A stretch of 64,000 bases of DNA from a bacterium. GTDB lineage: Bacteria > Bacillota > Clostridia > Lachnospirales > Lachnospiraceae. Each line of letters begins with the position of its first letter. Within the stretch, counting starts at the first letter, position 1. The position numbers were made by a program, and so were the translations under genes. The stretch is taken from NCBI GenBank assembly GCA_023663725.1, contig JAMPGX010000010.1, positions 1 to 64,000 of the forward strand, read 5' to 3'. Shown here piece by piece: positions 32,705 through 59,976 of this stretch. Under the pieces are notes generated by a model that saw only the letters and a program-made list of their open reading frames with translations, was not told the DNA's origin and made no database searches.

Positions 32705-32854
32705 ATTGTGTATATTGTATATTCCATAAGCAGCGCTCTTTCGAGCCGTCGGTACTTAGCGAGGTCTGCCGAATTTATTCGGCACGAGCTTAGTACCATT
32801 ACGGTGAGAACGAAGCGAGAGCGTGCCTGCGTTGGAGTATACAATGTACACAAT
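32705..32854. repeat. Structured dispersed repeat, copy A
   Basis: 150 bases. Outer arms of 22 bp (32705-32726 with 32833-32854, two G-U type pairs) enclose a core with CCGTCGGTACTTAGCG (32746-32761), a local hairpin (TGCCGAAT/ATTCGGCA), a returning arm GTACC...ACGG that can pair with CCGT and GGTAC, and AGCGAGAGCGTGCC (32814-32827). The same core occurs at 59.8 kb inside arms of different sequence. No coding potential or T tract; it lies between the SDR gene and the ygiQ stop. Confidence 0.85.
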
Positions 32855-32893
32855 GACACTCGCAAAGTAACTAAGTTTCGCAAACGCCTATTC

Positions 32894-34825
32894 TTACTTT
32901 TTCTTGTGGATATTGCGGATCGTCTTCTTTTTCCTTTCCTGCTTCGGTTTCACGCCGTTCACAGGCCGAGCCGTCCCAGCTTTTGGATTCTCCGTCCGCC
33001 TTGGACGGATCAGGCACTTCCTGTCATAGCCGATCAGATCCGTCCGCCCCGCCTTAATCAACGCCTCATACACCAGCTCATAGTTCCTGGGATTGCGATA
33101 CTGGATCAACGCCCGCTGCATGGCCTTTTCGTGGGGATCGCGGCACACATACACAGGCTTTAGCTCCGCCGTCTGGCCCCTTTGAGGGTCATAGCCTCTG
33201 GGGTCCAGTCCCGTGTAATACATGACTGTGGATACAGTGGAGGGCGTGGGATAAAAATCCTGTACCTGCTCCGGCATATACCCCAGATCCCGCAGGTATT
33301 CCGCCAGTTCTATGGCCTCCTTCAAGGTGGAGCCCGGGTGGGAGGACATCAGATAAGGCACCAGAAATTGCTTCCTGCCAAGCTCCTGATTCAGCCTTTT
33401 GTACTTGGCCACAAAGCGCTCATATACGGCGTTTTCCGGCTTGCCCATCCGCCGCAGCACCTTGTCGGAGATGTGCTCCGGCGCCACCTTTAACTGACCG
33501 CTGATATGATGCTCCACCAACTCTCGGAAAAAGGTGTCGTCCGCATCGGCCATCAGATAATCAAAGCGGATTCCGGAACGCACGAAGACCTTTTTCACCC
33601 CGTCGAGGCTGCGGAGCTTTCGCAGCAGCTCCAGATAGTCGCTGTGATCTACCAGGAGATTGGGGCAGGGACTTGGAGAGAGACACTGCCTCTGCTGACA
33701 TACCCCCTGCGTCAGTTGCTTTTGACAGGAGGGATGCCGGAAATTGGCAGTGGGTCCGCCCACATCATGAATATATCCCTTGAAATCCGGCTCTCCGGTC
33801 AAAAGCCTTGCCTCCTCGATGATGGATTCATGGCTTCTGACCTGTACGGTTCTTCCCTGGTGAAAGGTGAGCGCACAGAAGCTACAGCCCCCAAAGCACC
33901 CTCTGTTGCTGATCAGGGAGAATTTGATCTCCGCAATGGCCGGCACTCCGCCCGCCTCCTCGTAGGAGGGATGATAGGTGCGGGCATAGGGCAGCGCGTA
34001 CACGTCATCCATCTCCTGCGTCGTCAGAGGCGGCTGGGGAGGATTCTGCACCACGAAGCTGCCGCCGGGATAAGACTCGACCAGAATTTGTCCATTGATA
34101 AAATCTGTATTCTGATATTGTATGCCAAAGCTGCGCGCATATGCAGTCTTATCGGCCTTCATCTCCTCGAAGGTGGGGAGCAGGATGGCGTCGGTGAGCC
34201 CGCTGATGTCTTTGGTCTTATACACGGTTCCGTTGATAAAGGTGATATCTCTCACCGCGATGCCGCTGTCTAAGGCATCTGCGATCTCCACTATGGATTT
34301 CTCTCCCATGCCGTAGGAGATCAGATCAGCCTGGCTGTCCAACAGGATGGAGCGCTTAAAGCTGTCTGTCCAATAATCGTAGTGCGCCATGCGCCGCAGA
34401 CTGGCCTCGATCCCTCCGATGATGATGGGGACATCCCGATAGCTCCTGCGGATCAGGTTGCCATAGACCACCGTGGCGTGATCCGGACGTCTTCCAATGA
34501 CTCCGCCAGGCGTGTAGGCATCCGCGCTTCGCCTTTTCTTCGACACAGAGTAATGATTCACACAGCTGTCCATATTGCCTGCGGAGATCAGAAAGGCCAG
34601 CCTGGGCCGGCCCAGAATACGGATGCTGTCCTCCGATTTCCAATCGGGCTGGGAGATGATGCCCACAGTATACCCATGCGCCTCCAGCACTCTGCTGATG
34701 ATGGCATGTCCAAAAGAGGGATGGTCCACATAAGCATCCCCGATTACATAGACGAAGTCCAGCTGGTCAATCCCTCGATCCTCCATATCCTGTCTGCAGA
34801 TCGGTAAAAAGGTCTCACTCCACAT
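32894..34825 (-). CDS. ygiQ: YgiQ family radical SAM protein
   Basis: 643 aa. The cluster-binding C-x3-C-x2-C is [16 protein letters not shown] (about 310), after an N-terminal UPF0313 region ([19 protein letters not shown]). [19 protein letters not shown] and [19 protein letters not shown] are typical. Function is unknown. The ATG at 34825 follows GGGGAGACAAAGC and overlaps the HAD gene by 11 bases, so the RsuA, HAD and YgiQ genes are coupled. Confidence 0.9.
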
Positions 34826-35516
34826 GCTTTGTCTCCCCACATTCCTGCGGCAGCAATGTCCTGTAATCGGTGATATACAGGTCTGCCAGCTCCCGCTTCT
34901 GCTCCTCCAGATGCTTGGAATATTCGTCCTCCACCGCTGCCACTGTCATACCCGCATTCCGGCCGGACAGGATGCCGGGAATCACATCCTCAAACACCAG
35001 ACATTCCTCCGGCCGCACATCCAACCGCCTGGCCGCCTCCAGATAGATATCCGGCGAAGGCTTGCCGTGAGCTACATCACAGCCGGTAATGATGGTGTCA
35101 AATAGGTCTGCCAGGCCATGAACTCCGACTACCGCCTCCACAAGCTCCCGCGAATTGCTGGTAGCTATGGCCATCTTCACTCCCCTCCCACAGTGGTATG
35201 CCAGAAACTCTCTGACGCCGGACTTCAGCTTGACTTCATGCAGGTATTTGTCCCATGCCATGCGGTTCCAGTCCGCCTTCATCTGCTCGAGTGAATCAGG
35301 GATGGAAAAGCGTTCCTTAAAATACTGCGCGGTCTCTGTAAAGCTCATCCCCTCGATACTGTTCTGGAGATCTGCCGGCAATTCCAGCCCGAAGCGCCCC
35401 AGATACTTGATATCAATATCTCTCCATATCCACATGGAATCCACTAAAGTGCCGTCCAGATCGAAGAGAAATGCCTGTTTGTCCTGTATCGCATCTCGCA
35501 ATTTATCTTGCATCAT
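34815..35516 (-). CDS. HAD superfamily phosphatase (beta-phosphoglucomutase-like)
   Basis: 233 aa. Motif [15 protein letters not shown] (D19/D21), a helical cap, motif II IATSNS, and motif [18 protein letters not shown]. Members act on sugar phosphates or nucleotides; the substrate cannot be read from sequence. Its start overlaps the end of the rsuA-like gene by 14 bases. Confidence 0.85.
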
Positions 35517-36210
35517 GTCGTAAGCTCTCCTGTTCCTCCGGCGTCAGGGCTCGGAATTCACCGGCTTTCATGTCTTCGGGAAGCGCAAGACTCCCCATGG
35601 ACAGGCGCTTTAGATAGAGCACCCTGTTGCCCACGGCCTGCAGCATGCGCTTTACCTGATGATAGCGCCCCTCCTGAATGGTGAGCAGCAATTCTCCTGT
35701 CTCATTGAGGAGGGCTTTTGCAGGCAGGGTGGGCCTGTCATCCCCGATATCCACACCCTTCTCCAGAGCATGCAGCTCCTCCATAGTCAAGGGCCTCTGT
35801 GTGCGCACCAGATAGCATTTGTCCACATGTCGTCTGGGCGATAGGAGCCGGTGCGCCAATTCTCCGTCGTTGGTCAGGAGGAGCAGCCCCTCGGTATCCT
35901 TATCCAGTCTTCCCACCGGAGATAGATGAGCGGTGTTCACACCGGTGAGCAGATCGAGCACCGTCTTCTCCCGCGCATCCTCGGTGGCCGTGACGACCCC
36001 CTGAGGCTTATAGAGCAGATAATAACGAAAACGGGCATATTCCACCGACTGACCGTCCAGGAGAAGCTGATCCTGCCCCTCCTGTATCTTCTGCTCCGGC
36101 TTTCGACAGATTTGTCCGTTTACCGTAACCCGTCCCTGGCGTATATATTCCTTCACCTCACTGCGGGTCCCGATTCCGGCATCCGCCAACAGCTTATCCA
36201 ATCTCAACAT
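35503..36210 (-). CDS. RsuA/RluB-type pseudouridine synthase
   Basis: 235 aa. N-terminal S4 domain (MLRLDKLLADAGIGTRSEVKEY) and catalytic domain with PVGRLDKDTEGLLLLTNDG (catalytic D in GRLDKDT) and EGRYHQVKRMLQAVGNRV. Family members modify U516 of 16S or sites in 23S rRNA. The ATG at 36210 matches the family N terminus; an open extension to 36306 does not. Confidence 0.9.
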   Translation of the reverse strand: MLRLDKLLADAGIGTRSEVKEYIRQGRVTVNGQICRKPEQKIQEGQDQLLLDGQSVEYARFRYYLLYKPQGVVTATEDAREKTVLDLLTGVNTAHLSPVGRLDKDTEGLLLLTNDGELAHRLLSPRRHVDKCYLVRTQRPLTMEELHALEKGVDIGDDRPTLPAKALLNETGELLLTIQEGRYHQVKRMLQAVGNRVLYLKRLSMGSLALPEDMKAGEFRALTPEEQESLRHDAR

Positions 36211-36334
36211 CGTATCTATACTTCCCCTGTCTCCTTCCCTGGTCGCAATATTGTGTTCCTCAGAATGATAGAACATCATATCCCAACATATACTTTTATC
36301 AATCATCTATATTTTTGAGGGAAAGAATTCTCAT

Positions 36335-37300
36335 ATGCTATATACTCTGTGTTTCCTGCTCCTGTTTCTCATGATTCTGACCCATTCTCAGGAGGCCGCC
36401 TCCTACGCGGCGGAGGGCTTTCTGTTATGGTATTCCAAGATGATCCCATCTCTGCTCCCCTTCATGATTCTGTCGGGCCTGATGATTCGCATGGGATTGT
36501 CGCGTCAGCTTGGCAAATGGTTTCAGCCCATTCTGCGCCCTCTGCTGAAATGTAGCTCGGAGGTAAACTATGGGGTGCTGATGGGATTCCTGTGCGGCTT
36601 TCCCATGGGGGCAAGGGTTGCGGCCCAGCTATATCAGGAAAACCGAATCAATCGGGATGAAGCTCGCTTTCTGTTGGCCTTTTGCAACAATATCGGACCC
36701 GTGTATTTCTGTAGCTTTGTACTGCCCCTGTTGAGGCGCAGATTGACGCTCCCCTATCTGCTGGGCATGTATGGAATGCCTCTTCTCTATGGCATGCTCC
36801 TGCGCAGAACCCTGTTCAAAAATCTGACGGGAAATATGCTGCCGCTCCCTTCCGCTGATCATTCCCTCCAGGCGGCTTCCCTGAGCGCAGCAGCCGCTCC
36901 AAAGCCAGCCGGTGGAAGACGCTTTTCCGATCTGCTGCTGCATCTGGATGACGCCGTACAGACCGGACTGAAGAGCATCATCAGCCTGTGTGGATATATG
37001 ATTCTTTTCAATCTGCTGATTCTGGTTCCCCAGCTCCTGATGCCCTCGCTCAGCAACTGGCTCGCTCCTCTGTTCGAGATCACGGGGGGACTGAACCAGC
37101 TTGGGCAGCGCTGTCCGCTGTACTCCCTGCTGCTCCTCCCCTTCGGCGGTCTCTCCTGCATCGCCCAGACCTATGGCATGATCCATGAGACAGATCTGCC
37201 TCTGGGGGAATATGTGATACATAAACTCATTCTGACTGCAATGACCGGCCTGTATTATCTGATCTGGCGCATTCTGGCCCCGCAGTGCTTCCTGCTGTGA
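36335..37300 (+). CDS. YlbJ-type membrane protein (sporulation-associated family)
   Basis: 321 aa with about seven membrane segments. FLLWYSKMIPSLLPFMILSGLM, GFLCGFPMGARVAAQLY and FCNNIGPVYFCSFVLP match the nucleoside-recognition/YlbJ family; ylbJ lies near coaD and rsmD in Bacillus, as here (3 kb away). YlbJ is required for spore formation there; that this strain sporulates is inference. Transcribed opposite to its neighbours. Confidence 0.8.
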   Translation: MLYTLCFLLLFLMILTHSQEAASYAAEGFLLWYSKMIPSLLPFMILSGLMIRMGLSRQLGKWFQPILRPLLKCSSEVNYGVLMGFLCGFPMGARVAAQLYQENRINRDEARFLLAFCNNIGPVYFCSFVLPLLRRRLTLPYLLGMYGMPLLYGMLLRRTLFKNLTGNMLPLPSADHSLQAASLSAAAAPKPAGGRRFSDLLLHLDDAVQTGLKSIISLCGYMILFNLLILVPQLLMPSLSNWLAPLFEITGGLNQLGQRCPLYSLLLLPFGGLSCIAQTYGMIHETDLPLGEYVIHKLILTAMTGLYYLIWRILAPQCFLL

Positions 37301-37323
37301 GCCGATTGCTCCCCTCTGTCGTC

Positions 37324-38694
37324 CTATTTTCCTCTGCGGGTACGGTTGCGATGCCTTTTGGCAGACCGTATGATCTGTAACACCATCATCAGTGCCAGCA
37401 ATGCCAGTGCCGCCAACAGGCTTACCAACAGAAAATCCTGAATGCGGATACGGTATCCAGAGTCTTCCTCCTGCCCTGTCTCACTCCTGCCATCCAGCCA
37501 GCCGACGGATACAGACTGACTCTCCGACTCCTGGTCGGTAACACTGGCACTGTCCACTGCGGTTCCCATGACTTCGAGGCTCTCAGGCTCCTCCCTTCGG
37601 GGCTTTTGAAAGACGGAATATCCCTCCAGCACATTGCTTTCCGTGGTCAGTTCAAACTGATTATACGCTTTGATACGGATGCGGGGGCTGATGCCCTCGG
37701 GAATGTCCAGCACTATCTGACATACATCCTGATATTCCCCCGTCAGCGTATTGCTGCCGGGCCAGACCTGTCTGGGGGAATAGGTAAGCCCTCCATCCAC
37801 ACTGTAGGCATAGTAAATAAGTGGACTGTCATAGTCGGCCGCCGACACTTGAACCGTTGCCTGCAGGGAGTCCGTATAATCCTCCGAAATGCGTTCAATG
37901 CTGCATATCTCCGGCGGCGTGGAATCCTGCAGGGTGGATGGCACTACCCTGTCGGTCGCCATGGCATACACTTCCCGCAAAAAAGGCTCCTGTGGCTCAC
38001 CGCTGTTATCTACGCCCAGACTACTGCTGGACAGGCCCAGGAAACGGGCGATGGCGTCCGCATCTTCATAGCCAAACGCCTCCTGCTTCTCCTTGCTGTC
38101 GCAAAAGGGATAGTCTCTCACCTCGTCCACATGACAGTGCTCAATGAGAACCGCAGGGATTTGTCGTGCCACCGATTCCCGCAGAATTCCATAGTAGTCC
38201 CCCTTAGTACCTCTGCGGGTCTTGACTCCCCGAATAAAAAGCCCCTTCTCCTGAAACTGCGCAAGCAATGTACAACCGAATTGGTAACCGTAGGCGTTGT
38301 AGGGCGCTTCCAGAGGCACCCACACCTCGGAGCCAAACAGCTCGTGCTCCTCCGAGGCATTGTAATGAATACTGAACAAAATGTCCGCTCCCACACTCTT
38401 GGCATACTCTGCCCGATCCGCAAGGCTGGATTTCACATCGTCCGTGCGAGTCAGATACACTGTGACGCCATCGTACTGGGTCAGCCGCTCATACAGCGCC
38501 AGCGCAGTGGTCAGTGTCATCTCCTTTTCGCAGAAGCCATTCTCTGTGGTTCCTTCATTATCCCCGCCGTGCCCTGGATCAATCACCACGACAATATCGC
38601 GCCCCGACTGGCTCTGCCAGGGGGAGGCGGCGACAGACAGCGGCGTCACGGAGAACAAAACTCCCACCAGCAGCGTCAGAACCGCCCGTCTCAT
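37324..38694 (-). CDS. N-acetylmuramoyl-L-alanine amidase (Amidase_3), membrane-anchored
   Basis: 456 aa from the ATG at 38694: signal peptide (MRRAVLTLLVGVLFSVTPLSVAA), Amidase_3 zinc domain (IDPGHGGDNEG with the first His, EKEMT with the Glu, SIHYNAS with the second His, IEHCHV with the catalytic Glu), then an Ig-like region (~260-370), a low-complexity S/E stretch, a C-terminal membrane segment (about 425-447) and a basic tail. An alternative ATG at 38748 has a better ribosome binding site but would place a terminator hairpin inside the gene. Confidence 0.88.
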   Translation of the reverse strand: MRRAVLTLLVGVLFSVTPLSVAASPWQSQSGRDIVVVIDPGHGGDNEGTTENGFCEKEMTLTTALALYERLTQYDGVTVYLTRTDDVKSSLADRAEYAKSVGADILFSIHYNASEEHELFGSEVWVPLEAPYNAYGYQFGCTLLAQFQEKGLFIRGVKTRRGTKGDYYGILRESVARQIPAVLIEHCHVDEVRDYPFCDSKEKQEAFGYEDADAIARFLGLSSSSLGVDNSGEPQEPFLREVYAMATDRVVPSTLQDSTPPEICSIERISEDYTDSLQATVQVSAADYDSPLIYYAYSVDGGLTYSPRQVWPGSNTLTGEYQDVCQIVLDIPEGISPRIRIKAYNQFELTTESNVLEGYSVFQKPRREEPESLEVMGTAVDSASVTDQESESQSVSVGWLDGRSETGQEEDSGYRIRIQDFLLVSLLAALALLALMMVLQIIRSAKRHRNRTRRGK

Positions 38695-38699
38695 AGAAA

Positions 38700-38724
38700 A
38701 ACCGGTTTCTCCATGAAACCGGTT
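38700..38724 (-). terminator. Terminator between the coiled-coil gene and the amidase gene
   Basis: A perfect 9-bp stem (38700-38708 with 38716-38724), 7-base loop; on the minus strand TTTTTCT follows and the amidase ATG comes at once. It may attenuate amidase expression. Confidence 0.75.
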
Positions 38725-38734
38725 GTATTTTCTG

Positions 38735-39328
38735 TTAAAGTTCCTCATCTGCATCCTCAACATTCTCAAGCACCACATCCTCATACTCCTCCGCGGGGTG
38801 AAGTTCGCTTCTATTGGACTGGATAATATCCCTATAATGGTTCATGGAACCGATCAGGTTCTCATATCCTGTTCTGGCGGACTGGCTGGCCGAGGATATA
38901 ATGTTCTCCAGATGCGCCAGCATATCATCCATATACTGCATGGCGGCAGCCCGAACATTGTTGGCCTCTATGGTGGCGTTATCCAATATCTCCTGCGCCT
39001 GTTGGGAAGCCATGGTCACTACCTCATTGGCCTGAGAATAGGCCTGCTGCATGATCTCGTGCTCATTGATCAGCTCGTTGGTATGTACAGTCGCCTCGTT
39101 GATCAGCGCCTCCGCCTTGGCTCTGGCATCATTTAAGATCGCCTCCTTATTGCTGATGATCTTCTGATACCGCTTGATCTCATCCGGCGTTCGCATCCGC
39201 AGATCGCGGAGCAGCTCGTCGATCTCTTCCTTGTTGACGATAATCTTGGTGCTGGATAAGGGCTGATATTTACAGCTGTCAATGTATTCTTCGATCTCAT
39301 CAATTAACTGTTCAATCCTGCTACTCAT
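38735..39328 (-). CDS. Coiled-coil protein (V-ATPase subunit H/DivIVA-like)
   Basis: 197 aa, no signal peptide. Residues ~55-150 are a long alanine/glutamate-rich coiled coil (NDARAKAEALINEATVHTNELI; SQQAQEILDNATIEANNVRAA), the type often labelled ATP synthase subunit B/H-like; it ends in an acidic tail. This family commonly follows coaD in Lachnospiraceae; a role in cell division or envelope scaffolding is a guess. The ATG at 39328 follows GGAGGATTAC. Confidence 0.75.
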   Translation of the reverse strand: MSSRIEQLIDEIEEYIDSCKYQPLSSTKIIVNKEEIDELLRDLRMRTPDEIKRYQKIISNKEAILNDARAKAEALINEATVHTNELINEHEIMQQAYSQANEVVTMASQQAQEILDNATIEANNVRAAAMQYMDDMLAHLENIISSASQSARTGYENLIGSMNHYRDIIQSNRSELHPAEEYEDVVLENVEDADEEL

Positions 39329-39373
39329 GTAATCCTCCATACCTGCTTGATTACCCTGGGCTGCATCCCCCTG

Positions 39374-39859
39374 TTAGCGGTAACCATATTTTTGGTAGAT
39401 CATTTCCGCCTCCCAATCAGGAACACATTTGGCAATGTCCCCGTTAAAGCTTGCAAATTCCTTGACGCTGGTGGAACTTAAGTAGGCATATTCCAGACTG
39501 GTAGTCAGAAATACCGTGTCCAGCGCATCTTTGGACATCTGGCGGTTGGCCTGCGCGATCTGCAGCTCATACTCAAAGTCTGTGATAGCCCGCAATCCTC
39601 TGACCGCAATGTGAAATCCCTTGTCCCGACAATAGTCAATCAAAAGCCCGCTGAAGCTGTCAATCTTGACATTGGAAAGCTCCTCTGTGGCTTTCTCCAA
39701 TATTTTAACACGTTCTTCCACAGAAAACAATGGTGTCTTTTGCGTATTATTCAAAACGGCCACTGTCAACTCGTCAAACATGGGAGCTGCGCGCTTGATG
39801 ATGTCCAGATGGCCCAGCGTCATGGGATCAAAGCTTCCCGGATATACTGCCTTTTTCAT
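39374..39859 (-). CDS. coaD: Phosphopantetheine adenylyltransferase CoaD
   Basis: 161 aa, normal. It makes dephospho-CoA from 4'-phosphopantetheine and ATP. Nucleotidyltransferase motif YPGSFDPMTLGHLDII (6-21) and the ISSTSVKE-like LSSTSVKEFAS near the end. The ATG at 39859 follows GGAGGTATAGAT. Follows rsmD, as across Firmicutes. Confidence 0.97.
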   Translation of the reverse strand: MKKAVYPGSFDPMTLGHLDIIKRAAPMFDELTVAVLNNTQKTPLFSVEERVKILEKATEELSNVKIDSFSGLLIDYCRDKGFHIAVRGLRAITDFEYELQIAQANRQMSKDALDTVFLTTSLEYAYLSSTSVKEFASFNGDIAKCVPDWEAEMIYQKYGYR

Positions 39860-39927
39860 ATCTATACCTCCGCATATCGCAAGCCTGCCAGCGATACTGC
39901 ACACTTTCTTTTTCCGCGGCTCACGAT

Positions 39928-40494
39928 CTATCTGTCAATCTGCTCCGCTATTTTTTTGATAAATATATGCTTATTTGTTTTATATTTCTTTTCCCTCATA
40001 ACGGAAAAACCCATTTCTTCCACATAATCCATCTGGGTGTCAAGTGCCGCCTCCACGATGATCAGGGTGTTGTCCGTCACATAGCGCATCCCTGAAAGCG
40101 CTTCCAGAACACGCTTTTCATGTTCCAGTCCATAGGGCGGGTCCATAAAAAGGATGTCCACCTCTTTTTCCGAGATGCCAGCAAGAGCGGCTACCGCATC
40201 CTGCTTTAGAATCACCGCCCGATCTTCAAAACGTGTGAACTTCAGATTATCCGCCAGGCAACTTAATGGTTCCTTGGCATTCTCGGCAAAATATGCTTTT
40301 CTGGCTCCTCTGCTCAAAGCCTCAATCCCAATGCCGCCGCTGCCGCAGAACAAATCCACAAACACGCAGCCGGGAATGTCTCCCTGCAGGATATTGAATA
40401 GAGTCTCCTTGATTCTGTCCGAGGTAGGTCTGGTATCCAATCCCGAAGGAGTCTTCAATGGCAGACTCCTGGCCGTACCCGCTATCACTCTCAT
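39928..40494 (-). CDS. rsmD: 16S rRNA (guanine966-N2)-methyltransferase RsmD
   Basis: 188 aa class I methyltransferase. MRVIAGTARSLPLKTP is the family N terminus; SAM motif VDLFCGSGGIGIEALSRGA and the catalytic DPPYGLE (N/D-PPY) are clear. The ATG at 40494 follows AAGGAGAAGCGAT. It starts 16 bases after gyrA. Confidence 0.95.
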   Translation of the reverse strand: MRVIAGTARSLPLKTPSGLDTRPTSDRIKETLFNILQGDIPGCVFVDLFCGSGGIGIEALSRGARKAYFAENAKEPLSCLADNLKFTRFEDRAVILKQDAVAALAGISEKEVDILFMDPPYGLEHEKRVLEALSGMRYVTDNTLIIVEAALDTQMDYVEEMGFSVMREKKYKTNKHIFIKKIAEQIDR

Positions 40495-40510
40495 ATCGCT
40501 TCTCCTTGTA

Positions 40511-42754: not shown

Positions 42755-42776
42755 TCTGTCCTCTTTTCAAATATAT

Positions 42777-43502
42777 TTATTGTTTCTTTTCTTTTTCATA
42801 AAACTGCACGAAAGCAGCCTTGTCCTTTTCAAAAAGCGCCTCCAGCTCATAGGACAGCACAAAGGGATCGTAGGCCGCAAAGACATTGGGTATGTACTGA
42901 TACAGCTTATCGGCTATCTTCTGCATATGCGCGACGTTAGCTCCCTCCACATAGAATGTCTCCAGCTCGGTGAAGATCAGCAGACGGACGATAAAGGAGG
43001 AACGCCCCTTGCGGCCCACCTGGGCGCAGAGCCAGTATATCTTTTCCCGCGGAATCGCCAGGACTTGTCCCAGCGAATTGCGGTACAGCAGGTAGGAAGG
43101 CAGCAGCATAATTCGCTCTCCGCGGGGCGCCTTTCCTGGAGGAAATTCCTCGGTATATTCGTCTACCAGAACTTTTCCCTCCGCGACCTCACGGTCAATG
43201 ATCGCCGCCACTTCCTCTCTCGTTCTGCCCGGAAACAGAAAGCGCAGGCTTTTGCTGCCGTCCGCTGCCGCCCGGCCGGAGAGGAACAGCATCAACACCG
43301 CACAAACCAACATCAGACCCACGAGAATGGCTCCGCAGAGCACGATCTTTTTCGTCTGGGGGTCGCTTAAGTCTATTTCATCCTTGACCATAAAACCGAT
43401 AAACGCGATCAGAGATACAAATACCAGTAACAAAATAAGAATCATCTTTTTGTTTTTCCCGTTCGCCCGTTTCGCCTCACGCTCTAAAAATCCCTGTTCC
43501 AT
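42777..43502 (-). CDS. Hypothetical membrane protein, 241 aa
   Basis: N-terminal polar 20 residues, two membrane segments (about 22-40 and 55-77), then a ~160-residue cytoplasmic part (RTREEVAAIIDREVAEGKVLVDEY; LFIFTELETFYVEGANV-like core). No family recognised. The ATG at 43502 follows AAGGAGAAAAT. It lies 22 bases before gyrA with no terminator between, so gyrA may be read from the same transcript. Confidence 0.7.
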   Translation of the reverse strand: MEQGFLEREAKRANGKNKKMILILLLVFVSLIAFIGFMVKDEIDLSDPQTKKIVLCGAILVGLMLVCAVLMLFLSGRAAADGSKSLRFLFPGRTREEVAAIIDREVAEGKVLVDEYTEEFPPGKAPRGERIMLLPSYLLYRNSLGQVLAIPREKIYWLCAQVGRKGRSSFIVRLLIFTELETFYVEGANVAHMQKIADKLYQYIPNVFAAYDPFVLSYELEALFEKDKAAFVQFYEKEKKQ

Positions 43503-43551
43503 ATTTTCTCCTTTTCTGAATTGTTTTATATAAATACAGTTTCGCAGTTGG

Positions 43552-45594: not shown

Positions 45595-45609
45595 TTCAAA
45601 ACAGTGTAT

Positions 45610-52500: not shown

Positions 52501-52767
52501 CTGTATCGGTAGGGTCTCCGGCTCACGACTTTCCTGTTGCGGTATCGTCTCCGGCTCACGACTTTCCTGTTGCGGCATTGCCTCCGCCCCGCGGCTTTGC
52601 CGCACCGATACAGACTTCAGCGCCTCCTGGTAGGCCTGGTGCAGCCTGGCAAACGCCTCCGGATTTTCCTCCATATGGCACAGCTTGGATTGCGCGGCAT
52701 AGGCAGAGCGGATCGCCCGTTTGTCATTAGTTCTCTCGATACCGAGAATCTTCCAGCAGTCACTCAT
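49537..52767 (-). CDS. Large J-domain-like protein, 1076 aa
   Basis: Residues 1-50 form a J-like domain (CWKILGIERTNDKRAIRSAY; AFARLHQAYQEAL) in which the HPD tripeptide is HME (31-33), although HPD is normally essential to stimulate Hsp70 ATPase. A repeat region (~62-85) and acidic linker follow, then ~950 residues with no family I can name, including mixed helices and ILDALRRYESYRR. The neighbouring Hsp70 gene overlaps it by 8 bases. ATG at 52767 has GGAGGAGAGACGG. Confidence 0.7.
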   Translation of the reverse strand: MSDCWKILGIERTNDKRAIRSAYAAQSKLCHMEENPEAFARLHQAYQEALKSVSVRQSRGAEAMPQQESREPETIPQQESREPETLPIQDDLESEIVSEQPEPMEEPVSLLRRMQQAEESRVEESLVGGALKAFADTLEREKGLGKRQCSEVWKEFFLSDDFLREQFDEGFMRGMLYCLSERGEGCSIAFRVELAIAYALSSERAAQDIPYVRECMQGALPARELDKPENLVRLRSFDDYIRLCDLLKKGRLTRKNKDSWENLLMHGAVNHMFERWGKGSRDIYSETRSVCLIRLYTFWVREKDVPNCVLEHMYKQYALKDLEHSSSRGLYAPLKQEILSKYPNIEDALFGAASRAQTESDIYREIMEIVAVNHADYDRGIYQETAKTRERIRALFSRPDWQKQRFSNELFERLSLQFNNRMVVPESLARELIAHFSQGIEEGRWEDAGKASLMVETLVMSLAFSRRIRDIRSAGDARSQGLEGTGIEDIRDDNRDFWYYYLAVGFGFRKAEVDLSATYMSYLYTMGAVCYLPLYMRYNYYPARQWIKSFVEGTGKPPVYSFALPDGKRLEVEFHLHYCLYLLDGGTVYRPTYPFGAFVDMAEKLTRTEQFFFLLAITEIRPEDRTRAEELVKERLEKLWLFPATVRVLCRLLAGEEELLQTSECGGRSSYQDGASASRQFIYPSEEKPVSPDICFADIEAIYYQEQEDHCFRVLVTKTAARLFHQRDFGWHELMMPEFAGDTERQARLFLERLCKPQPVSLGITSLEGLKNEEKAERILDALRRYESYRRRGGEEKAQTESYCVIHFGQDKQRLFYCGFLPYAFPAEEQSGEFQRNYRSNLEDLKRKIKEKHQILGNFGWGNGYTAAERFVLLPFAIGDSGTYYVFDVFHTYRADKLATLLAKSFDLTLATEVEIYQGALGFSELSGQMEYCFDEEELRKSMYSPDVTDTDIFVRFTRTERMMELTRWLDGILAGADIEQPLFRLDELRENVYALSLWNRTSSGKVSLMGESPRLIWKLRGTDLSREDVIQELHGQLRWYVDCGACGGKLKECGEEYSVELYLRTGSVLREDADS
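52520..52585. repeat. Tandem 33-bp repeat in the J-like gene
   Basis: Two adjacent 33-base units (52520-52552, 52553-52585) differ at four or so positions and encode the 11-residue unit PQQESREPET, part of a polar linker after the J-like domain. The unit number may vary between strains. Confidence 0.85.
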
Positions 52768-54568
52768 CCGTCTCTCCTCCGCCCTGCTCATCCTCCGAGT
52801 CGTACTCTATATCCTCGTAGAAATATTCGTCCTCCTCCGAATCATCATACTCCCCGCTATATTTTAGTTCCCCGTCAAACAGCAAATCCTCCTCCGAATT
52901 CTTCAGCATCTCCAGTCTTGCAAGGAATTTTTTCGTCTCCTCCACCACCTGTTTTTCCACACGTTTTCTGCCGCTCTGCAGCCCTTCGGTAAACCGGTCT
53001 ATCCAGAATCCGATCTGATAACGCCGCTGTCCCAGGCTCCCCTCAAAACAGGCGAAAAGACGCGCCAACAGCTCCTGATTCTCCGCCCTTTGAATCGGCG
53101 GTATCATAAGCTCCTCCATCTGTTTCTGATACCGCTCAAGCTCCGCTTCACTGAGACTCTGATTGGCGAGCAGAATATGATTGCGAACCTTCTGGGAATT
53201 CACCACCTCCACAAACAGTATCCCATTGATATCATAGGAAAAATAGACGTCGATCCCCTCCTGTCCGGCCGGAGCAGGCTTAACAGGGATTCGCACCTCT
53301 CCCAGATACAGATTGTCTCTGGCATAATACTCCTCTCCCTGATAGATACGGACCGCGATCTCTCTCTGATAGTCCGCCAATGTGTACAACCGTTGACAAT
53401 GCATGGAGGGGAGGGTGGAATTGCGCTCGATCATGGGGAGCAAATAACCCTGTTCATGCGTATTTTTGTGCCAGGACTCCACGCCCAGTGTAAACGGACA
53501 CACATCAGTCATCATCATGTCCCGAATATCCTCGTTCCGGCTGCGGATGCCAGAATAGGCACCGGCCCCCATCGCCACCACCTTGTCCGTCTCCCCCAGC
53601 ACTACGGGCTCTTTGCCTAAAAGCTCCGTCAAAAACCGTTGCACAATGACCATCCGCGAGGAGCCTCCCACCATCACCAGATCATCCACATCGGACACCC
53701 TGGAATTGGCGTCATGCAATAGGCGTACAAAGATCTTTTTTATCTTTTCAAACAGAGGCATGCAGATATCAAATAAGATATCCTGGTCCAATACGACACA
53801 GTACTGTGCGCCGTCCAGCTCTAACGTGACTTCCGCCTCCGTTTCCAGCCGTATCTTTGCGCGCTCCGCGCCCTCCTTGAGCGCCGCCTTTTCCTGCGGC
53901 GGAAGTTCTTCCCAGACCAGGCCGTTTTCCCGACAAAAATAGTCCGCGATCAGGCGGTCGATATCGTCTCCGCCCAGATAGTTATCCCCCGCCACGGCAA
54001 CAATCTCGATGATATTGTCAAAGCACTCGACGTAGGAAAGATCCAGTGTGCCGCCGCCAAAGTCAAAGACCAGAAGCGTCCTGTCCTCCTCCCCATGCTC
54101 CAGACGGTATGCCAGAGCAGCCGAGGATGGCTCGTTGATCAGGCGTTCCACATGAAGTCCGGCGATCTTGGCCGCCTTCTTGGTGTCGCTGCGCTGCTTG
54201 TCGTTAAAGTAGGCTGGAACCGTGATGATCGCCTCTTCAATCTCTTCCTTCAGGGAATACTCTGCATTTTTACGGATTCTCTCCAGGACCATGGCGGAGA
54301 GCTCCATCGGCGTATACATTTTACCGCCCAGACTGTACTTTTTATCCGTTCCCATAAAGCGCTTGAAGGAACCCACCGTCTCCTCGCCATGGGTCAGGAG
54401 ACGTTCTCTTGCCGGCCAGCCCACAAGCAGACCTTCGTCCTTTACATAGCTCACCACGCTGGGAAACAGCACCCGCCCGCCCTCATCCTGGAGCAGACAG
54501 ACCTCCCCATCCCTCCAATAAGCTGCCAGACTGTTCGTCGTACCAAGATCAATGCCTATGATCGCCAT
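52760..54568 (-). CDS. Hsp70 (DnaK) family protein
   Basis: 602 aa, cytoplasmic. Nucleotide-binding domain (~1-375): IGIDLGTTNS (3-12), FDFGGGTLDLS, VGGSSRMVIVQ and AVAMGAGAYSG-like motif. Substrate-binding domain (~385-505) is present but diverged, and the C terminus is an acidic D/E/Y-rich tail instead of the DnaK lid ending. A housekeeping dnaK is expected elsewhere; this is a paralogue. It overlaps the kinase gene upstream by 20 bases and the J-like gene downstream by 8. Confidence 0.88.
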   Translation of the reverse strand: MAIIGIDLGTTNSLAAYWRDGEVCLLQDEGGRVLFPSVVSYVKDEGLLVGWPARERLLTHGEETVGSFKRFMGTDKKYSLGGKMYTPMELSAMVLERIRKNAEYSLKEEIEEAIITVPAYFNDKQRSDTKKAAKIAGLHVERLINEPSSAALAYRLEHGEEDRTLLVFDFGGGTLDLSYVECFDNIIEIVAVAGDNYLGGDDIDRLIADYFCRENGLVWEELPPQEKAALKEGAERAKIRLETEAEVTLELDGAQYCVVLDQDILFDICMPLFEKIKKIFVRLLHDANSRVSDVDDLVMVGGSSRMVIVQRFLTELLGKEPVVLGETDKVVAMGAGAYSGIRSRNEDIRDMMMTDVCPFTLGVESWHKNTHEQGYLLPMIERNSTLPSMHCQRLYTLADYQREIAVRIYQGEEYYARDNLYLGEVRIPVKPAPAGQEGIDVYFSYDINGILFVEVVNSQKVRNHILLANQSLSEAELERYQKQMEELMIPPIQRAENQELLARLFACFEGSLGQRRYQIGFWIDRFTEGLQSGRKRVEKQVVEETKKFLARLEMLKNSEEDLLFDGELKYSGEYDDSEEDEYFYEDIEYDSEDEQGGGETDE

Positions 54569-55160
54569 GATATTCCTCCGTTTGATCTATATCGTTTTCA
54601 TGATGCTCTTGCGCGTATTGCAACAATTCTGGCGTTCTGGACCAATATTTGACGCCCCAGTTCTCAAAGTTCCACTCTTCCATATAATCGTTGCACTCAT
54701 AGTCGATATAATAAAGCCTGTCTTTCTGCCACACAAAATTAGTGGGGAAATAATCAATATTGATATTGGCAGGATATAGCTTGCGACACATCTCCTCAAC
54801 CTGTTCCATGCAGGCGGCTGGCAACTCCCCTGTCAGCACCATCTCATACGCAGTTTTTCCATCAATGTATTCCTTGACAATGCGCTCCGCCTGCCGGTCA
54901 ACAGCCAAGAGCTTCGGCAGAGGGATGCCAATGGTCTGTAATCGCTCATAATCTCTCAGCTCCGATGCAAGCTTATCGCCAAATTGATAGTAAGCACAGG
55001 GTTCGTGATGAATCTGTTTCAGCACCACCTTTTTATCTCCATCAAAGACCAGATAGGAATATCCGCCCTTTCCCTTCCCCAAAAGCTTTATGACGGGATA
55101 CTCTTTGCCGTCTACCGTGAGAACATCCGGTAGTTTCTGATAGAATCCACTAGCTTTCAT
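54549..55160 (-). CDS. Protein-kinase-like protein, 203 aa
   Basis: Short kinase fold: glycine loop LLGKGKGGYSY (27-37), VVLKQI with the ATP-binding Lys (48), and a C-lobe NINIDYFPTNFVW...LYYIDYEC, where N-I-D and the later D may take the catalytic/metal roles in place of HxD and DFG. It is similar to RIO/BUD32-size kinases. Target unknown; the adjacent Hsp70 is a candidate. ATG at 55160 follows GGAGGATTTT. Confidence 0.7.
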   Translation of the reverse strand: MKASGFYQKLPDVLTVDGKEYPVIKLLGKGKGGYSYLVFDGDKKVVLKQIHHEPCAYYQFGDKLASELRDYERLQTIGIPLPKLLAVDRQAERIVKEYIDGKTAYEMVLTGELPAACMEQVEEMCRKLYPANINIDYFPTNFVWQKDRLYYIDYECNDYMEEWNFENWGVKYWSRTPELLQYAQEHHENDIDQTEEYHGDHRH

Positions 55161-55205
55161 AAAATCCTCCATATAACATAAAATAAATGCTACCTGACTC
55201 TCCAC

Positions 55206-57485
55206 TTATATGCTGCCGCCATATCCGGCATTTTGCCAACAGGTAACGCCCCTCTCCTCTTTTCGCCAATAATCCTGTTCCACACAGTCCCAGACAATGT
55301 TTTCATAAGTGATGGCCCCATATTCATCCGGTGGAATTGTATAGTTGACAGTCACAATATCGCTGGGCTTCCACCTGACGATCTCCGTCACCTCGTACCC
55401 CTCCGCCTCCACTTTTCCGACCAAATCAAAGCCGCAGAGCTCCTGCAATTCTTCCCTTGAGATGTGCTCTCCCACATCCGGCTTGAGTTCTCCGGCTCCT
55501 GTTTCTCCAGGCTTTCTTTCATAATGGTAAAAATAGGGTCTCCAGGTATGTCCCGTCCACAGATCGTCCGCCGGTTCATAGTAATGATCATAGCCATTTG
55601 CCCATACCTCAAAATCCCATCGGCTCTCCGGACGATAAAGCACCTCCCCAATCTGCGGCAAATGTACCTGCACCGGTTCCCCGTTTTCCACCGTCCAGAC
55701 ACGGCTTAGATTGGCAGTAAGGACTATGGCAGAATGGCAATAGAGATATTTCTGCCTGTGATCTGCTGTCTCAAATATCATCTGTCCGTCAATCATGCGA
55801 TAACTTTCCTTTATAGAGCTATCCGACAGGCAAACGCAACAGTCTGCTCCCGCAAACCAATAGTCGCCGCTGTATTCGACGCTGCCAAAATCACCATCGC
55901 CTTTTTCCCCAAAGAACAGAAACGCCTCGTACCTGCCGTCCCCGTCAAAGTCGTCATAATCCATATGCAGCAGAGAGTCCTCCCCCATGCCGGACTTGAG
56001 CAGCGCATTTCTCTTTAATGTGTCATACTGGGTCAGAATCAACGTCTGCAACTGCTCCCGCAATGTCTCTTTCGTATCCATATCTTTCTGTAAGAGCGTA
56101 CAGGTATTCTCCCTCAGTATCTTATTGGCGGCATTGTCTTTCCATTCCTGCAAAGCCTCGTCATACTGCGCCTCGGATACTTCTTTATCATCTATTTCAT
56201 ACAGCGAAATCGGGACATCGTCTTCCCTGCCGTCGGCGTAGCGCCATCCAGACATAAATTCCTGAAGAACCGTATCCTCTGCTGCGTTTACCTGATGTAT
56301 GCGCAATACAGTGCCGCTGCTCCGATAATCACTGAAAATAATCCCCTCTTTTTCCCGATAAACGGTAGTTCCCTCCGGCGATATGCCGTAATTTCCCACC
56401 AAGACTGCTTTGCCACGTTCACAGGTATAGATCTCCGCCTCGTAAACGTTGATGACTGCCAGCTCCGGGATATCGTCTCCGTCTAGATAGAGCAGCGTAA
56501 AAGGCACTGTCTTCCGTTCATTGGCAAGCTCTCTCAACAACAGTCCGTAGGCATCCAATGCCTCCTCCTGTCGGGCAACCAGATCCAAAATCGGCTGAGA
56601 GTCTCTTTTCCACAGTAAACTATCTATCTGCTGTGTAAGCGCAGGCAACAGATTGTCTTCACTCAGGGCAATACCGTCCTCATAGCCGATCAGCACATAG
56701 CTCTGGCTGTCATACAACTCCTCCCATTTGGCCTCATATATTTCCTCTGTTGTGGACTTATCATCTATCTCATAATATTCTGCATATATGAGTTCCTGCT
56801 CTTTCCACAAATACTCTGGCCAGGAATGCATACGGCAGATAACGTTTATCTCTCCGTCCGTCAACTGGTGAAAATATGTAAGGGCCTCCCCCTGTCCCAT
56901 AAAATGGTCGAAGATCATACCATCTCCTTCCACATACTGCATTTTCCCGAAGGAACCGAACTCCCCCAGCTCCACTACCTCGCCCTGCGCATAGGTACAG
57001 ACATTTACCCCAGCCGCATGGCAATCATTCCGAAACAGCAGCAGTTCAGGAACCGCGTCCCCGTCGATCAATACCAGCCGAAAGCGGTATTCCATATCTG
57101 TATCAGATCTTTGGGCAAGGCATTCCAATAAAAACTGACAGTACGCTCTGGCGTAGGGAGCTTCCAGTGAACATTGTATCTCCTTCGAAATCCCCTTCCC
57201 ATCCAGAGCAGTCTCCTGCGCTGCCTCGATTGCCTGTGATTGCTCTACGGTTGCCTGTGGCTCCGCCGATTCTTCCAGTTGCGACGGATGCGCACTGTTT
57301 TCCTGTTCTATACTCCTGTCCTCTGGCGATGTGCACACATTATCTTCCTGCTCCGCAGATTTGGCTATCAACAGCCCTTCCATGTTTTCTTTATGTTCCG
57401 GCGTCCCGCATCCATTGGTCAATAGCAAGATGACACAGCTAAGTAGCATGACCGCAGTTTTCCACCTTTTTGTGTTTTTAGCCAT
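55206..57485 (-). CDS. Large lipoprotein, 759 aa, unknown
   Basis: Signal peptide with lipobox LTNGC (Cys about residue 27) and a Q/E/S-rich linker (~40-105). Two repeated blocks (about 110-240 and 290-430) share the pattern LLLFRND...VCTYAQGEVVELGEFG and LAVINVYEAEIYTCERGKAVLVGNYG, suggesting VCBS/EF-hand-free beta-propeller-like repeats; a third related region has DDFDGDGRYEAFLFFGEKGDGD. No known family assigned. Within the operon of intracellular proteins it is the only surface component. ATG at 57485, 2 bases after the methyltransferase stop. Confidence 0.7.
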   Translation of the reverse strand: MAKNTKRWKTAVMLLSCVILLLTNGCGTPEHKENMEGLLIAKSAEQEDNVCTSPEDRSIEQENSAHPSQLEESAEPQATVEQSQAIEAAQETALDGKGISKEIQCSLEAPYARAYCQFLLECLAQRSDTDMEYRFRLVLIDGDAVPELLLFRNDCHAAGVNVCTYAQGEVVELGEFGSFGKMQYVEGDGMIFDHFMGQGEALTYFHQLTDGEINVICRMHSWPEYLWKEQELIYAEYYEIDDKSTTEEIYEAKWEELYDSQSYVLIGYEDGIALSEDNLLPALTQQIDSLLWKRDSQPILDLVARQEEALDAYGLLLRELANERKTVPFTLLYLDGDDIPELAVINVYEAEIYTCERGKAVLVGNYGISPEGTTVYREKEGIIFSDYRSSGTVLRIHQVNAAEDTVLQEFMSGWRYADGREDDVPISLYEIDDKEVSEAQYDEALQEWKDNAANKILRENTCTLLQKDMDTKETLREQLQTLILTQYDTLKRNALLKSGMGEDSLLHMDYDDFDGDGRYEAFLFFGEKGDGDFGSVEYSGDYWFAGADCCVCLSDSSIKESYRMIDGQMIFETADHRQKYLYCHSAIVLTANLSRVWTVENGEPVQVHLPQIGEVLYRPESRWDFEVWANGYDHYYEPADDLWTGHTWRPYFYHYERKPGETGAGELKPDVGEHISREELQELCGFDLVGKVEAEGYEVTEIVRWKPSDIVTVNYTIPPDEYGAITYENIVWDCVEQDYWRKEERGVTCWQNAGYGGSI

Positions 57486-57486
57486 A

Positions 57487-58119
57487 TCAGCCTTCCTCAA
57501 TCACCTCAAAATCAATATGCAACAATTTTTTCCTATTGGGCAGGGGATACTCTTTTGTTCCCAGATGAGTATATCCGGCCGCACACACAGTTCTGCCCAG
57601 TTCTGCAGCATTTATCTGGCTGTGGATACCGCCGAGTCCGTCAAAGGCATGAAGATAGGGAGAGTCAGAGACAAACTCCTCCCCGGTATCCAGCTGAATG
57701 CCACAGGAGACAACTTTCGGTCTTACCCTTTCAACAATCCTCTGAAAGCAGTCACACCCGATATATTCCACCAGCAGATTCGCGATCAACAGCTCAGCCG
57801 CTGGCAATCCATCGCTTTCCGTCCGCAGATCAAGGCAAAGACAGTGTAAAATATCCGCAAGCCCCTGATATCTTTTCTGAACCTCACGCAGATACTCCCC
57901 ATTCACATCCACACCATAAACCGCCCTGTATTTTTGCGGGTTGATATGCTCCAGACCGTTGCCGCCCGCAACTCCCAGAATCATGACGCTTTGTACCGGA
58001 TAGGCAGACAACTGCTCCTTCATCATCTCGTTAAGCGCCTGGAGCTGCATCACCGTATGCAGCTTCATATGGTTTTCATAGTCAGAAAGCTTTATCGATT
58101 CCCACGGATTGTTTGTCAT
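57487..58119 (-). CDS. Class I SAM-dependent methyltransferase
   Basis: 210 aa. SAM motif I is MILGVAGGNGLEHI (about 46-59) and motif II GVDVNGEYL; the rest follows the seven-strand fold (LLIANLLVEYIGCDCF). Substrate unknown. It overlaps the phosphatase stop by 4 bases (ATGA), so translation is coupled. Confidence 0.8.
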   Translation of the reverse strand: MTNNPWESIKLSDYENHMKLHTVMQLQALNEMMKEQLSAYPVQSVMILGVAGGNGLEHINPQKYRAVYGVDVNGEYLREVQKRYQGLADILHCLCLDLRTESDGLPAAELLIANLLVEYIGCDCFQRIVERVRPKVVSCGIQLDTGEEFVSDSPYLHAFDGLGGIHSQINAAELGRTVCAAGYTHLGTKEYPLPNRKKLLHIDFEVIEEG

Positions 58120-59132
58120 CCCAACAGCTTCCTCCTGATCAGCGCCGTCTCTTCCCGCGTCACGCCCCGCGCCTCAAGATAATCCTCCACCGTATCAAAG
58201 CGCTCCTGAAAGAGCCTTAGAAACTCCCTCATATAGCTCTCATCCGGTATCACAATGCCCATATCCACCTCCGGATAATTCTGATGGATCAATTCAAAGC
58301 GTTTCTGATTGCACTCGCGGGTCAACAGATAGTCATACACGATATCCTCGTCGCTGACGCCGCACAGCTTCAGCAAAAGAGCGCTGACCACGCCCGTACG
58401 GTCCTTACCCGCCGTACAGTTGATCATCACACCAGCGGGGGCGGCGGCTATCCTCTGAAAGACCAGCGGCATGTTCTTCGCCATGGCAATATCCATATAA
58501 CTGCCAGGAACTGCCTCCCGACTCTCCGGTATGCCGCTCCCCTCGTCGATAGGTACATGGCAGTACGCAAAGCCCGCCGCGTTCTCAAATCCGCTGGGCG
58601 CCCTCAGAATATCCTCCCCTCCCCGCATATCTATGATCGTGGTGATATGGTGACTTTTCAGCAGGGCAATATCCTCCTCGTCAGGGTATTTCTGCACATC
58701 GCTTCGCCAGACAGCGTTCATGCGGGTGTACCGCCCTCTTTCTATGGTCCTGTAACCTCCCAACTCTCTGGTATTCAATGTGGTATGTAAAAGGGTATGA
58801 GGAACGGCATTCCAGGCCAGTTTCCATCCCCACTGATACTCGTCCAGACCAGCCTGTCCCCGCGAAAACGCATCCAGCTCCTTCAGACAGAATGTCACAG
58901 CCATCTCAATAAATTCATCCGCCTTCTGCTCCGTGAAAAAGAACAGACTCCCGTCCTGACAGGAATTATAATCCTCCTTCAGTTCTTCATAAAAATTCTC
59001 ATATCCAAAGGGATAGAGCTTATGAATCGCCTCATCCGCAAAATCCTGCGGGAGCGTGATATCATCCTGCAACTGATATTTCCTGACCACATAAGTATTG
59101 ATCAGCGCATAATCAATGTGAAGCCGGTCCAC
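58116..59132 (-). CDS. Tyrosine/dual-specificity phosphatase (Y_phosphatase3-like)
   Basis: 338 aa. The signature C-x5-R is INCTAGKDRTGVV (C239, R245), and NTRELGGYRTIERGRYTR and IIDMRGGEDI match bacterial PTPs of the PF13350 type. Residues 1-115 are an extra N-terminal domain (YALINTYVVRKYQLQDDI; FYEELKEDYNSCQDGS) not seen in small PTPs. The first usable start in this frame is a GTG at 59132 with a poor ribosome binding site; a good site at ~59185 feeds an ATG (59176) in another frame that stops after 24 codons, so a frameshift or unusual start is possible. Confidence 0.78.
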   Translation of the reverse strand: MDRLHIDYALINTYVVRKYQLQDDITLPQDFADEAIHKLYPFGYENFYEELKEDYNSCQDGSLFFFTEQKADEFIEMAVTFCLKELDAFSRGQAGLDEYQWGWKLAWNAVPHTLLHTTLNTRELGGYRTIERGRYTRMNAVWRSDVQKYPDEEDIALLKSHHITTIIDMRGGEDILRAPSGFENAAGFAYCHVPIDEGSGIPESREAVPGSYMDIAMAKNMPLVFQRIAAAPAGVMINCTAGKDRTGVVSALLLKLCGVSDEDIVYDYLLTRECNQKRFELIHQNYPEVDMGIVIPDESYMREFLRLFQERFDTVEDYLEARGVTREETALIRRKLLG

Positions 59133-59198
59133 ATCAGAATATCCGTTATCGCCAAATGTATGATCCTGGACGCCATAGTTCCCTTTTCCTCCTCCAAA

Positions 59199-59738
59199 CT
59201 AGGAGATCTGTTCAATCCGGCACTTTTGACACAGTGGATACTGCTCGATAAAGGGCATTATCCTGTCTTTCATCTCAGCATAGGAGGTCCCATAGAAATA
59301 CAGCGCCGTATGCGTTTTCCCCTCCCAATAGCTGTACATTCTGCCGACTCCCTCCATAGCCTTCTCCATCTGTTCGATCACATAATTGATATCACAGCTC
59401 TGATATACCTCTGGCGGCAGATCGACACCGTTCGAATAATAGGCCAATCCCTCCAATGTGCCTACCTCGATTTCCGGATCTACACCCTGTAAGAGAGACC
59501 CCTTGGGAATCCCGATTCTGTTGAGCAAACGCACCAGCCATTCCACCTGCTCCGAGTCATCATCAGACAACGCAATCTCAATGTCACAGTAAGTAACTTC
59601 CCCGTCGGGCCTTTGCGCCGTTCCCCCTCCGGTTATTTCTCCTATCCCCTTTTCTTTCAATATCTCCTCCAAAGCATCTTCCAGCTCAAATCTATGAATG
59701 GGCTGAAACTTCGCATTCAATTTTAATGTCAAATACAT
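59199..59738 (-). CDS. Hypothetical protein, 179 aa
   Basis: No signal peptide. MYLTLKLNAKFQPIHRFELEDALEEIL at the N terminus resembles proteins of immunity or stress modules; the middle DGEVTYCDIEIALSDDD and the end GKTHTALYFYGTSYAEMKDRIMPFIEQYP form a beta-rich fold. No family assigned. The ATG at 59738 follows AGGAGGGATTGGA. It is the first gene of the Hsp70/J/kinase operon. Confidence 0.65.
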   Translation of the reverse strand: MYLTLKLNAKFQPIHRFELEDALEEILKEKGIGEITGGGTAQRPDGEVTYCDIEIALSDDDSEQVEWLVRLLNRIGIPKGSLLQGVDPEIEVGTLEGLAYYSNGVDLPPEVYQSCDINYVIEQMEKAMEGVGRMYSYWEGKTHTALYFYGTSYAEMKDRIMPFIEQYPLCQKCRIEQIS

Positions 59739-59835
59739 TCCAATCCCTCCTATTTGTAATCGCTGCGCGATGGCACTAAAGGGTAAAGTCCCTTCGGCGC
59801 GCACCAGACGCAATCTCCCCCTGCGATAGTCCCGA

Positions 59836-59976
59836 GTCCTGGGCGGGGTATATGCCCTTGCAGCGGTCGTTGTGAACCGTCGGTACTTAGCGGGCGTACT
59901 GTGCCCGCTTATGTACCGCTACGGCGAACACCGAGCGGGAGCGTGCCGCAACAAGGGCATATACCCCGCCCAGGAC
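59836..59976. repeat. Structured dispersed repeat, copy B
   Basis: 141 bases. Outer arms of 25 bp match perfectly (59836-59860 with 59952-59976). The core has CCGTCGGTACTTAGCG (59877-59892, identical to copy A), an inner hairpin (GCGGGC/GCCCGC), the returning GTACC...ACGG and AGCGGGAGCGTGCC (59934-59947, one difference from copy A). It lies 33 bases beyond the gyrB stop. The rest of the gap (59739-60009) shows nothing else. Confidence 0.85.

Follow-up and report, generated by a model that had tools for sequence, protein, structure and literature searches.

A probable RNA-level repeat module carried by several mobile scaffolds in the Lachnospiraceae

ERIC, BOX, Correia/NEMIS and RUP are bacterial miniature inverted-repeat transposable elements (MITEs) or structured intergenic repeats. 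The repeat described here resembles them in being short, non-coding, intergenic and high in copy number, in having terminal inverted repeats and target-site duplications, in folding into hairpins when transcribed and in often lying next to genes. The general features of MITEs on which this comparison is based are those given in PMC10969869. We analysed a 64,000-nucleotide stretch of DNA, hereafter the window, from a bacterium of the family Lachnospiraceae (assembly GCA_023663725.1, contig JAMPGX010000010.1, positions 1 to 64,000 of the forward strand), which contains two copies, A and B, of a repeat with a conserved core. A sequence-only reading of the window had proposed that base pairing is under selection in these copies, as in a structured non-coding RNA or a palindromic repeat family of the lineage. 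Our interpretation, to which we give a probability of roughly two in three, is that the repeat is a structured, RNA-level module borne by several mobile scaffolds throughout the Lachnospiraceae. That it constitutes a structured mobile family is well supported, and a role of the core at the RNA level is likely, the function itself being inferred.

The outer stem of copy A is formed by a 5' arm at 32705..32726 and a 3' arm at 32833..32854 (+ strand), with 22 of 22 positions paired, two of them as G.U, and it encloses a structured core at 32730..32833 (+; 84.2 bits with R1, a covariance model of the core built from 13 sequences). The stem of copy B (arms at 59836..59860 and 59952..59976, +) is 25 bp long and free of mismatches (25/25), and its core lies at 59860..59953 (+; 88.0 bits with R1). 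Each core carries a GNRA mini-hairpin, GC-GAGA-GC at 32815..32822 (+) in A and GC-GGGA-GC at 59935..59942 (+) in B. An identical 16-mer is present at 32746-32761 and at 59877-59892, and a second sequence, AGCGRGAGCGTGCC, is also common to both copies. At up to three mismatches, the 16-mer was seen three times in the window, compared with a mean of 0.16 and a maximum of 1 in dinucleotide shuffles. The two copies, their shared sequences and their long, near-perfect outer stems are therefore as first described, and the likeness exceeds chance. The accompanying claim that the outer stems have no sequence in common holds largely but is slightly too strong, as a short GTATAT-CC recurs in the inner stems of both copies (by eye only). 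The fold z scores against shuffled sequences are -8.9 (+ strand) and -7.7 (- strand) for A and -10.0 (+) and -11.3 (-) for B. Inspection by eye, without a terminator scan, showed no T run after the stem of B and none immediately after the stem of A.

Two copies alone are too few for interpreting such an observation. A search of the same genome with R1 yielded 107 places at E <= 1, from which we took the 103 with E <= 0.005 for analysis; an element unique to two loci is thereby ruled out. With up to two mismatches, the 16-mer occurs at 67 places in this genome (2 for a reversed control). By eye, 66 of these 67 contexts share the outer arms of copy A and further flanks, the exception being copy B; among eight weaker matches inspected, at least two (C15:15851 and C14:10637) likewise carry their own stems, again by eye. 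The genome contains sub-families in which the inner hairpin varies, and some have an extra hairpin. In some copies, such as L008, L021 and L065, a hairpin with the sequence TCGTGTTACGGTTTGCAACCGTAACACCACGA or a variant of it is inserted on the 5' side of the core. Several copies are spaced 250-550 bp from one another at G000 C1:91710-92619 and C44:108708-109276, and some MITEs have apparently inserted beside others.

The search of related genomes that the sequence-only reading had recommended revealed homologous cores throughout one family. R1 matched 26 of 61 genomes, all labelled as the same genus, which was the only one of the family in that sample. R2, a covariance model built from 45 diverse cores, matched 29 of 295 genomes in a sample of the order. 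All 29 are among the 48 genomes listed for the family (the genome of the window included; the family is evidently Lachnospiraceae), and none of the 247 others matched. In a sample of the phylum, R2 matched 4 of 348 genomes, all from this family. Searches spanning more than 40 genomes used stricter filters, with loss of weak matches. A pattern scan of named contigs found at least 115 stretches; among the 80 titles listed, 53 are Lachnospiraceae, Acetatifactor or Roseburia, and the remainder are Clostridium, Clostridiales, Clostridiaceae, Bacillota and nine of Gastranaerophilales or Muribaculum, which may be mis-binned. No match to the core was found in a plasmid search. In the proposed comparison with Rfam, the core matched no family at the gathering threshold, and what matched at E up to 10 was at chance level. 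No description of the element was found in the literature searched, although it may have been predicted computationally among the motif lists of PMC8040213. The core also occurs in two records deposited as 'Bacteriophage sp.', L098 (MT839589.1), which resembles a bacterial chromosome scaffold, and L099 (MT838426.1). A phage origin, considered on the basis of MT839589.1, was rejected: the record is unannotated, and by eye its open reading frames (ORFs) look like genes of a bacterial chromosome, with NUDIX- and HTH-like examples.

The core most likely folds, as RNA, into a three-way junction composed of the outer stem, an arm containing P2, P3 and P4, and the GNRA-capped mini-hairpin. A set of 83 copies was reduced to 50 non-redundant ones, mostly without MITE ends and at least five with them, and the covariation alignment comprised copy A and 44 of these 50 cores, six having been dropped for long inserts or as redundant or odd. 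Over the 45 cores and 29 pairs, 81.7% of the cells are paired (65.5% when shuffled), 263 cells show double-sided changes (105.9 when shuffled), and the covariation score is 0.420, compared with 0.158 (sd 0.010) for shuffles and 0.084-0.130 for slid controls. Of five covariation measures, three lie above every one of 500 shuffles and above each slid version; the structure counted was derived from the same sequences and thus has an advantage over the slid controls. The pattern used to pick the 83 copies included the GNRA part, and the motif was hence recounted on 113 copies chosen independently of it. Among these, 103 contain the mini-hairpin AGY-NNNN-RC, 96 of the 103 loops are GNRA, and the closing pair is C-G in 89, T-A in 12, C-A in 1 and T-G in 1. 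All 103 mini-hairpin loops of the window's own genome are GNRA. The core also has conserved unpaired positions. Together, the outer-stem pairing, the covariation, the mini-hairpin counts and the family-limited matches uphold the proposal that base pairing is under selection in a structured RNA or palindromic repeat family of this lineage.

The outer stems are mostly unrelated between lineages and paired within each copy. In the 50 non-redundant copies, the mean arm alignment score was 23.5 within a copy and 6.9 (sd 1.9) between copies; the own-arm score exceeded the 99th percentile of the cross scores in 49 of the 50 and their maximum in 25. Median stem similarity increased from 0.16 at 60-65% core identity to 0.82 at 95-100%. 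Stem similarity thus tracks core similarity, so that stems are mostly inherited with the core and diverge with compensation. The idea that every copy has an unrelated outer stem suits B better and fails for A, whose stem layout, with mostly the same bases, is found in 91 of the 103 copies of its genome. Identical outer arms, as in an ordinary MITE, had been named in advance as a finding that would speak against the original proposal, and the arms of A are indeed near-identical among many copies.

One copy departs from joint inheritance. Apart from the apical loop, L395 (=L277) and L302 have identical cores, and the stem of L395 is unrelated yet paired. This copy would be explained if the core inserted into existing palindromes, such as terminators, or inverted a copy of its flank on insertion, the stems then being derived from the target; stems unique to each locus and locus-specific inverted repeats outside some elements (by eye) are in line with such a process. 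We nevertheless regard it as very improbable, since the rise of stem similarity with core similarity indicates that the two are normally copied together and L277 is also explicable by core conversion between old copies. Moreover, no palindrome like that of B was seen by eye at the parE-type loci inspected in relatives, where the neighbouring gene differs in most cases; no empty site for B was obtained. Replacement of the stem at every insertion was rejected as a general rule: of three suggestive copies in one genome, two share a diverged common stem (by eye), and L395 remains.

Copy A is a transposable element and a member of a MITE family. It spans 219 bp (32671..32889, +), as defined by the similarity of its ends and by a 12-bp target-site duplication with one mismatch, ATTCTTATTTTT on the left (32659..32670, +) and ATTCTTACTTTT on the right (32890..32901, +). 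The right terminal inverted repeat, TAGGCGTTTGCGAAAC (32875..32890, -), has one base in common with the duplication, and the left end, starting at 32671, is degenerate. The site is empty in five relatives (L446, L448, L450, L452 and L464), in which the gene downstream, encoding a short-chain dehydrogenase (SDR), and its Shine-Dalgarno (SD) site follow a radical SAM gene within a few tens of bases; in L445, a different spacer of ~130 nt without the element occupies the locus. From the 103 copies of this genome, 91 entered the stem count and 73, copy A included, the end count, both ends of the latter matching TAGRCRATTGCRAAAC (at least 11/16). Direct repeats of 9-14 bp (mode 12) adjoin the ends in 34 of the 73; swapping the flanks among copies gives an expectation of 0.8. 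In other genomes, 17 of the 94 copies examined have the same ends, and 13 of these 17 show a duplication. Copy B stands alone and has a 25-bp stem of its own. It has no recognisable transposon ends and is not among the 73, and no duplication was detected around it by a strict test that misses many true MITEs. The earlier contrast with transposon-type repeats, namely, that fixed terminal sequences are lacking, consequently fails for A and comes closer to the truth for B. Pairs of end-like hits 143 bp apart and in opposite orientation occur at G000 C29:17834, C44:212180, C48:34921, C9:9394, C15:28933 and C13:34816; they apparently represent a family of shorter MITEs that have these terminal repeats and lack the core.

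Copies of this type are inserted beside SD motifs. Both copies in the window lie, as had been noted, 30-40 bases downstream of minus-strand genes (39 bp for A and 33 bp for B), but more telling for A is its position directly upstream of the SD site of the next gene. Copy A landed in the 5' leader of the SDR gene (31869..32639, -; PF00106), whose SD sequence, AGGAAAGGG, is one base away from the duplication and begins 13 nt from the end of the element. A motif AGGAG, GGAGG or AAGGA starts 13-21 nt outside one end in 47 of the 73 two-ended copies, on the sense side in 36, on the antisense side in 10 and on both in 1 (p 0.00016 for the sense excess), whereas control 8-nt windows from 5 to 77 nt contained 0-6 per side, the 30-37 nt window none. 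Purine tracts of 7 nt with three or more G begin 12-17 nt from an end in 48 of the 73 copies and 18-23 nt from it in 28, compared with 2-13 in every other 6-nt window up to 83 nt. The strict motif was present in 8 of the 17 same-ended copies of other genomes and in none of them in a more distant window; by eye, a purine tract occupies this position in most of the copies that lack the motif. Some core-less ends of the same type also face a purine tract and others do not (by eye), which suggests that the insertion rule probably belongs to the transposon rather than to the core.

Pairing errors in the stems differ between strands. On the sense strand, the outer-stem mismatches of the 91 MITE copies comprise 129 G.U, 21 A.C and 105 others, and in the 50 non-redundant copies G.U again outnumbers A.C (78 vs 46, p 0.005). 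This excess favours the sense strand acting as RNA. The sense strand could also matter as DNA, if the repeat were a single-stranded hairpin read by a strand-specific enzyme, like REP hairpins recognised by RAYT transposases or attC sites. Conserved unpaired bases together with variable apical and outer stems would suit such a hairpin as well as the strand preference does, and d(GCGNRAGC) mini-hairpins are very stable as DNA too. However, duplications of 9-14 bp and terminal repeats are unexpected for such systems, and no replication-strand bias was seen among 31 copies of the complete genome G006 (14 vs 17, by eye, with the origin assumed at 0 and the terminus at the midpoint). We consider this explanation improbable.

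Several results weigh against an RNA-level module on mobile scaffolds. Given the stability of such mini-hairpins as DNA, the GNRA loop alone is no proof of RNA. Two covariation measures stay near the shuffles, namely, pairs with a double change (20 vs 18.4, reached in 29 of 500 shuffles) and pair types (63 vs 63.4, reached in 309 of 500), and the shuffles ignore the relatedness of the cores. The G.U excess in the MITE copies does not count as independent evidence copy by copy: a single stem position accounts for 60 of the 129, and the distinct position-states number 12 vs 7. The 39 of the 50 non-redundant copies for which both neighbours were called (by a crude longest-ORF script) comprise 16 sense and 18 antisense copies between tandem genes, 3 convergent and 2 divergent, a lack of orientation preference that weakens a simple cis-regulatory RNA role for those copies. 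No SD motif is found at the expected distance in 26 of the 73 copies, copy A falling among them under the strict motif despite its AGGAAAGGG, and 39 of the 73 two-ended copies have no duplication. Finally, a transposase with these ends was not found; the search covered 20 regions of the genome with end-like hits, of which the most promising were read, and several contigs end at such repeats. L411, L412 and L414, taken up as leads to an autonomous partner on account of end-like hits, look like MITE fragments or an unrelated insertion sequence end.

Part of this evidence could be accommodated by ordinary DNA palindrome MITEs, in which pairing is kept at the DNA level by quasi-palindrome correction in replication or by a need of the transposase, with no role for RNA. 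The terminal repeats and duplications, the neutral orientation of the 39 copies and very long, near-perfect stems, such as the 47 Watson-Crick pairs of L331, would all be expected. Such palindromes leave unexplained the strand-asymmetric G.U excess, the GNRA loop with its covarying closing pair, the conserved unpaired positions, the sense excess in leaders and the presence of one core in scaffolds with differing ends (by eye), and we judge this explanation unlikely.

The scaffolds with other ends are relevant here. The duplication evidence was tested for TAGRCRATTGCRAAAC-type ends, and AAATGGAAAGTTAG- and CTCGAGGGG-type ends are known by eye only. In G006, the core often lies within a composite repeat of ~470 bp with AAATGGAAAGTTAG-type ends (by eye) and with a TwoAYGGAY RNA on the other strand; no target duplications were seen for 17 copies, the search range barely reaching the left end. 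In G018 and G011, by eye, CTCGAGGGG-type ends flank the core, and the stems vary and are paired. No ends were recognised in the remaining copies elsewhere. TwoAYGGAY RNA (RF01731) is likewise a structured RNA, from Clostridiales of the human gut, and occurs on the opposite strand ~90 nt from the core in L104, L193, L203 and L205, the four G006 copies scanned, and in L098. It differs in that the core has no match to RF01731, and the G006 copies L198, L202 and L211 lack the flank that holds it (by eye). In composite-repeat genomes such as G006, TwoAYGGAY RNA appears to be part of the mobile repeat. In L183, L189, L213, L215 and L217 (G018/G011), locus-specific inverted repeats ~15-23 bp long were seen by eye further out on either side of the element, one of them starting right after an apparent stop codon.

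The variety of ends raises a bolder idea, which we hold to be rather doubtful: the transposable unit might be the RNA fold rather than the DNA ends. A three-way junction that repeatedly acquired ends (TAG-CAATTGCGAAA, AAATGGAAAGTTAG and CTCGAGGGG), or none, might be aided in its spread by its transcript, for example if a transposase or a reverse-transcription machinery used that transcript as a recognition RNA, and the SD-directed scaffold would place it in transcribed 5' leaders. In the reading that we prefer, the module would have spread through the Lachnospiraceae by forming the body of mobile elements that are not autonomous, with the transposase supplied in trans. Copy A is one of ~100 copies in its genome, most of them MITEs that insert ~17 nt upstream of SD sites and duplicate 9-14 bp. 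Within transcripts, in leaders and intercistronic regions, the module would be present as RNA, and any paired outer sequence may suffice. Its likeliest role would be that of a stable fold that insulates the mRNA or sets its processing, or that is recognised by a protein of the host or of the element.

Upstream of copy A lies the radical SAM gene (32894..34840, -; PF08497), the stop codon of which is contained in the right-hand duplication, and upstream of copy B lies a GyrB/ParE-type gene (60010..61938, -; PF00204 and PF00986). A REP-like hairpin repeat, TCGCTGCGCGATGGCACTAAAGGGTAAAGTCCCTTCGGCGCGC, at 59746-59805 adjoins copy B; it has at least 30 other matches in the genome, some 100-130 bp apart, at loci that differ from those of the core.

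A structured element that reaches ~100 copies in single genomes of a dominant gut family was found neither in Rfam nor in the literature searched. Its copies, in which compensated stem variants surround a single conserved core, provide a natural library. The near-fixed SD distance is a concrete, testable target rule by which numerous leaders receive a folded module simultaneously, and expression could plausibly be rewired in this way. Compared with known bacterial MITEs, the elements of the copy A type are distinguished by this nearly fixed distance. REP/BIME hairpins with RAYT transposases are similar as intergenic hairpin repeats, but copy-A-type elements differ from them in having the ends and duplications of classical transposons. 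By comparison with the descriptions of ERIC, BOX and Correia elements, the repeat described here stands out by the RNA-type covariation of its core and by its GNRA-capped junction; it occurs family-wide and is carried by scaffolds with differing ends or with none.

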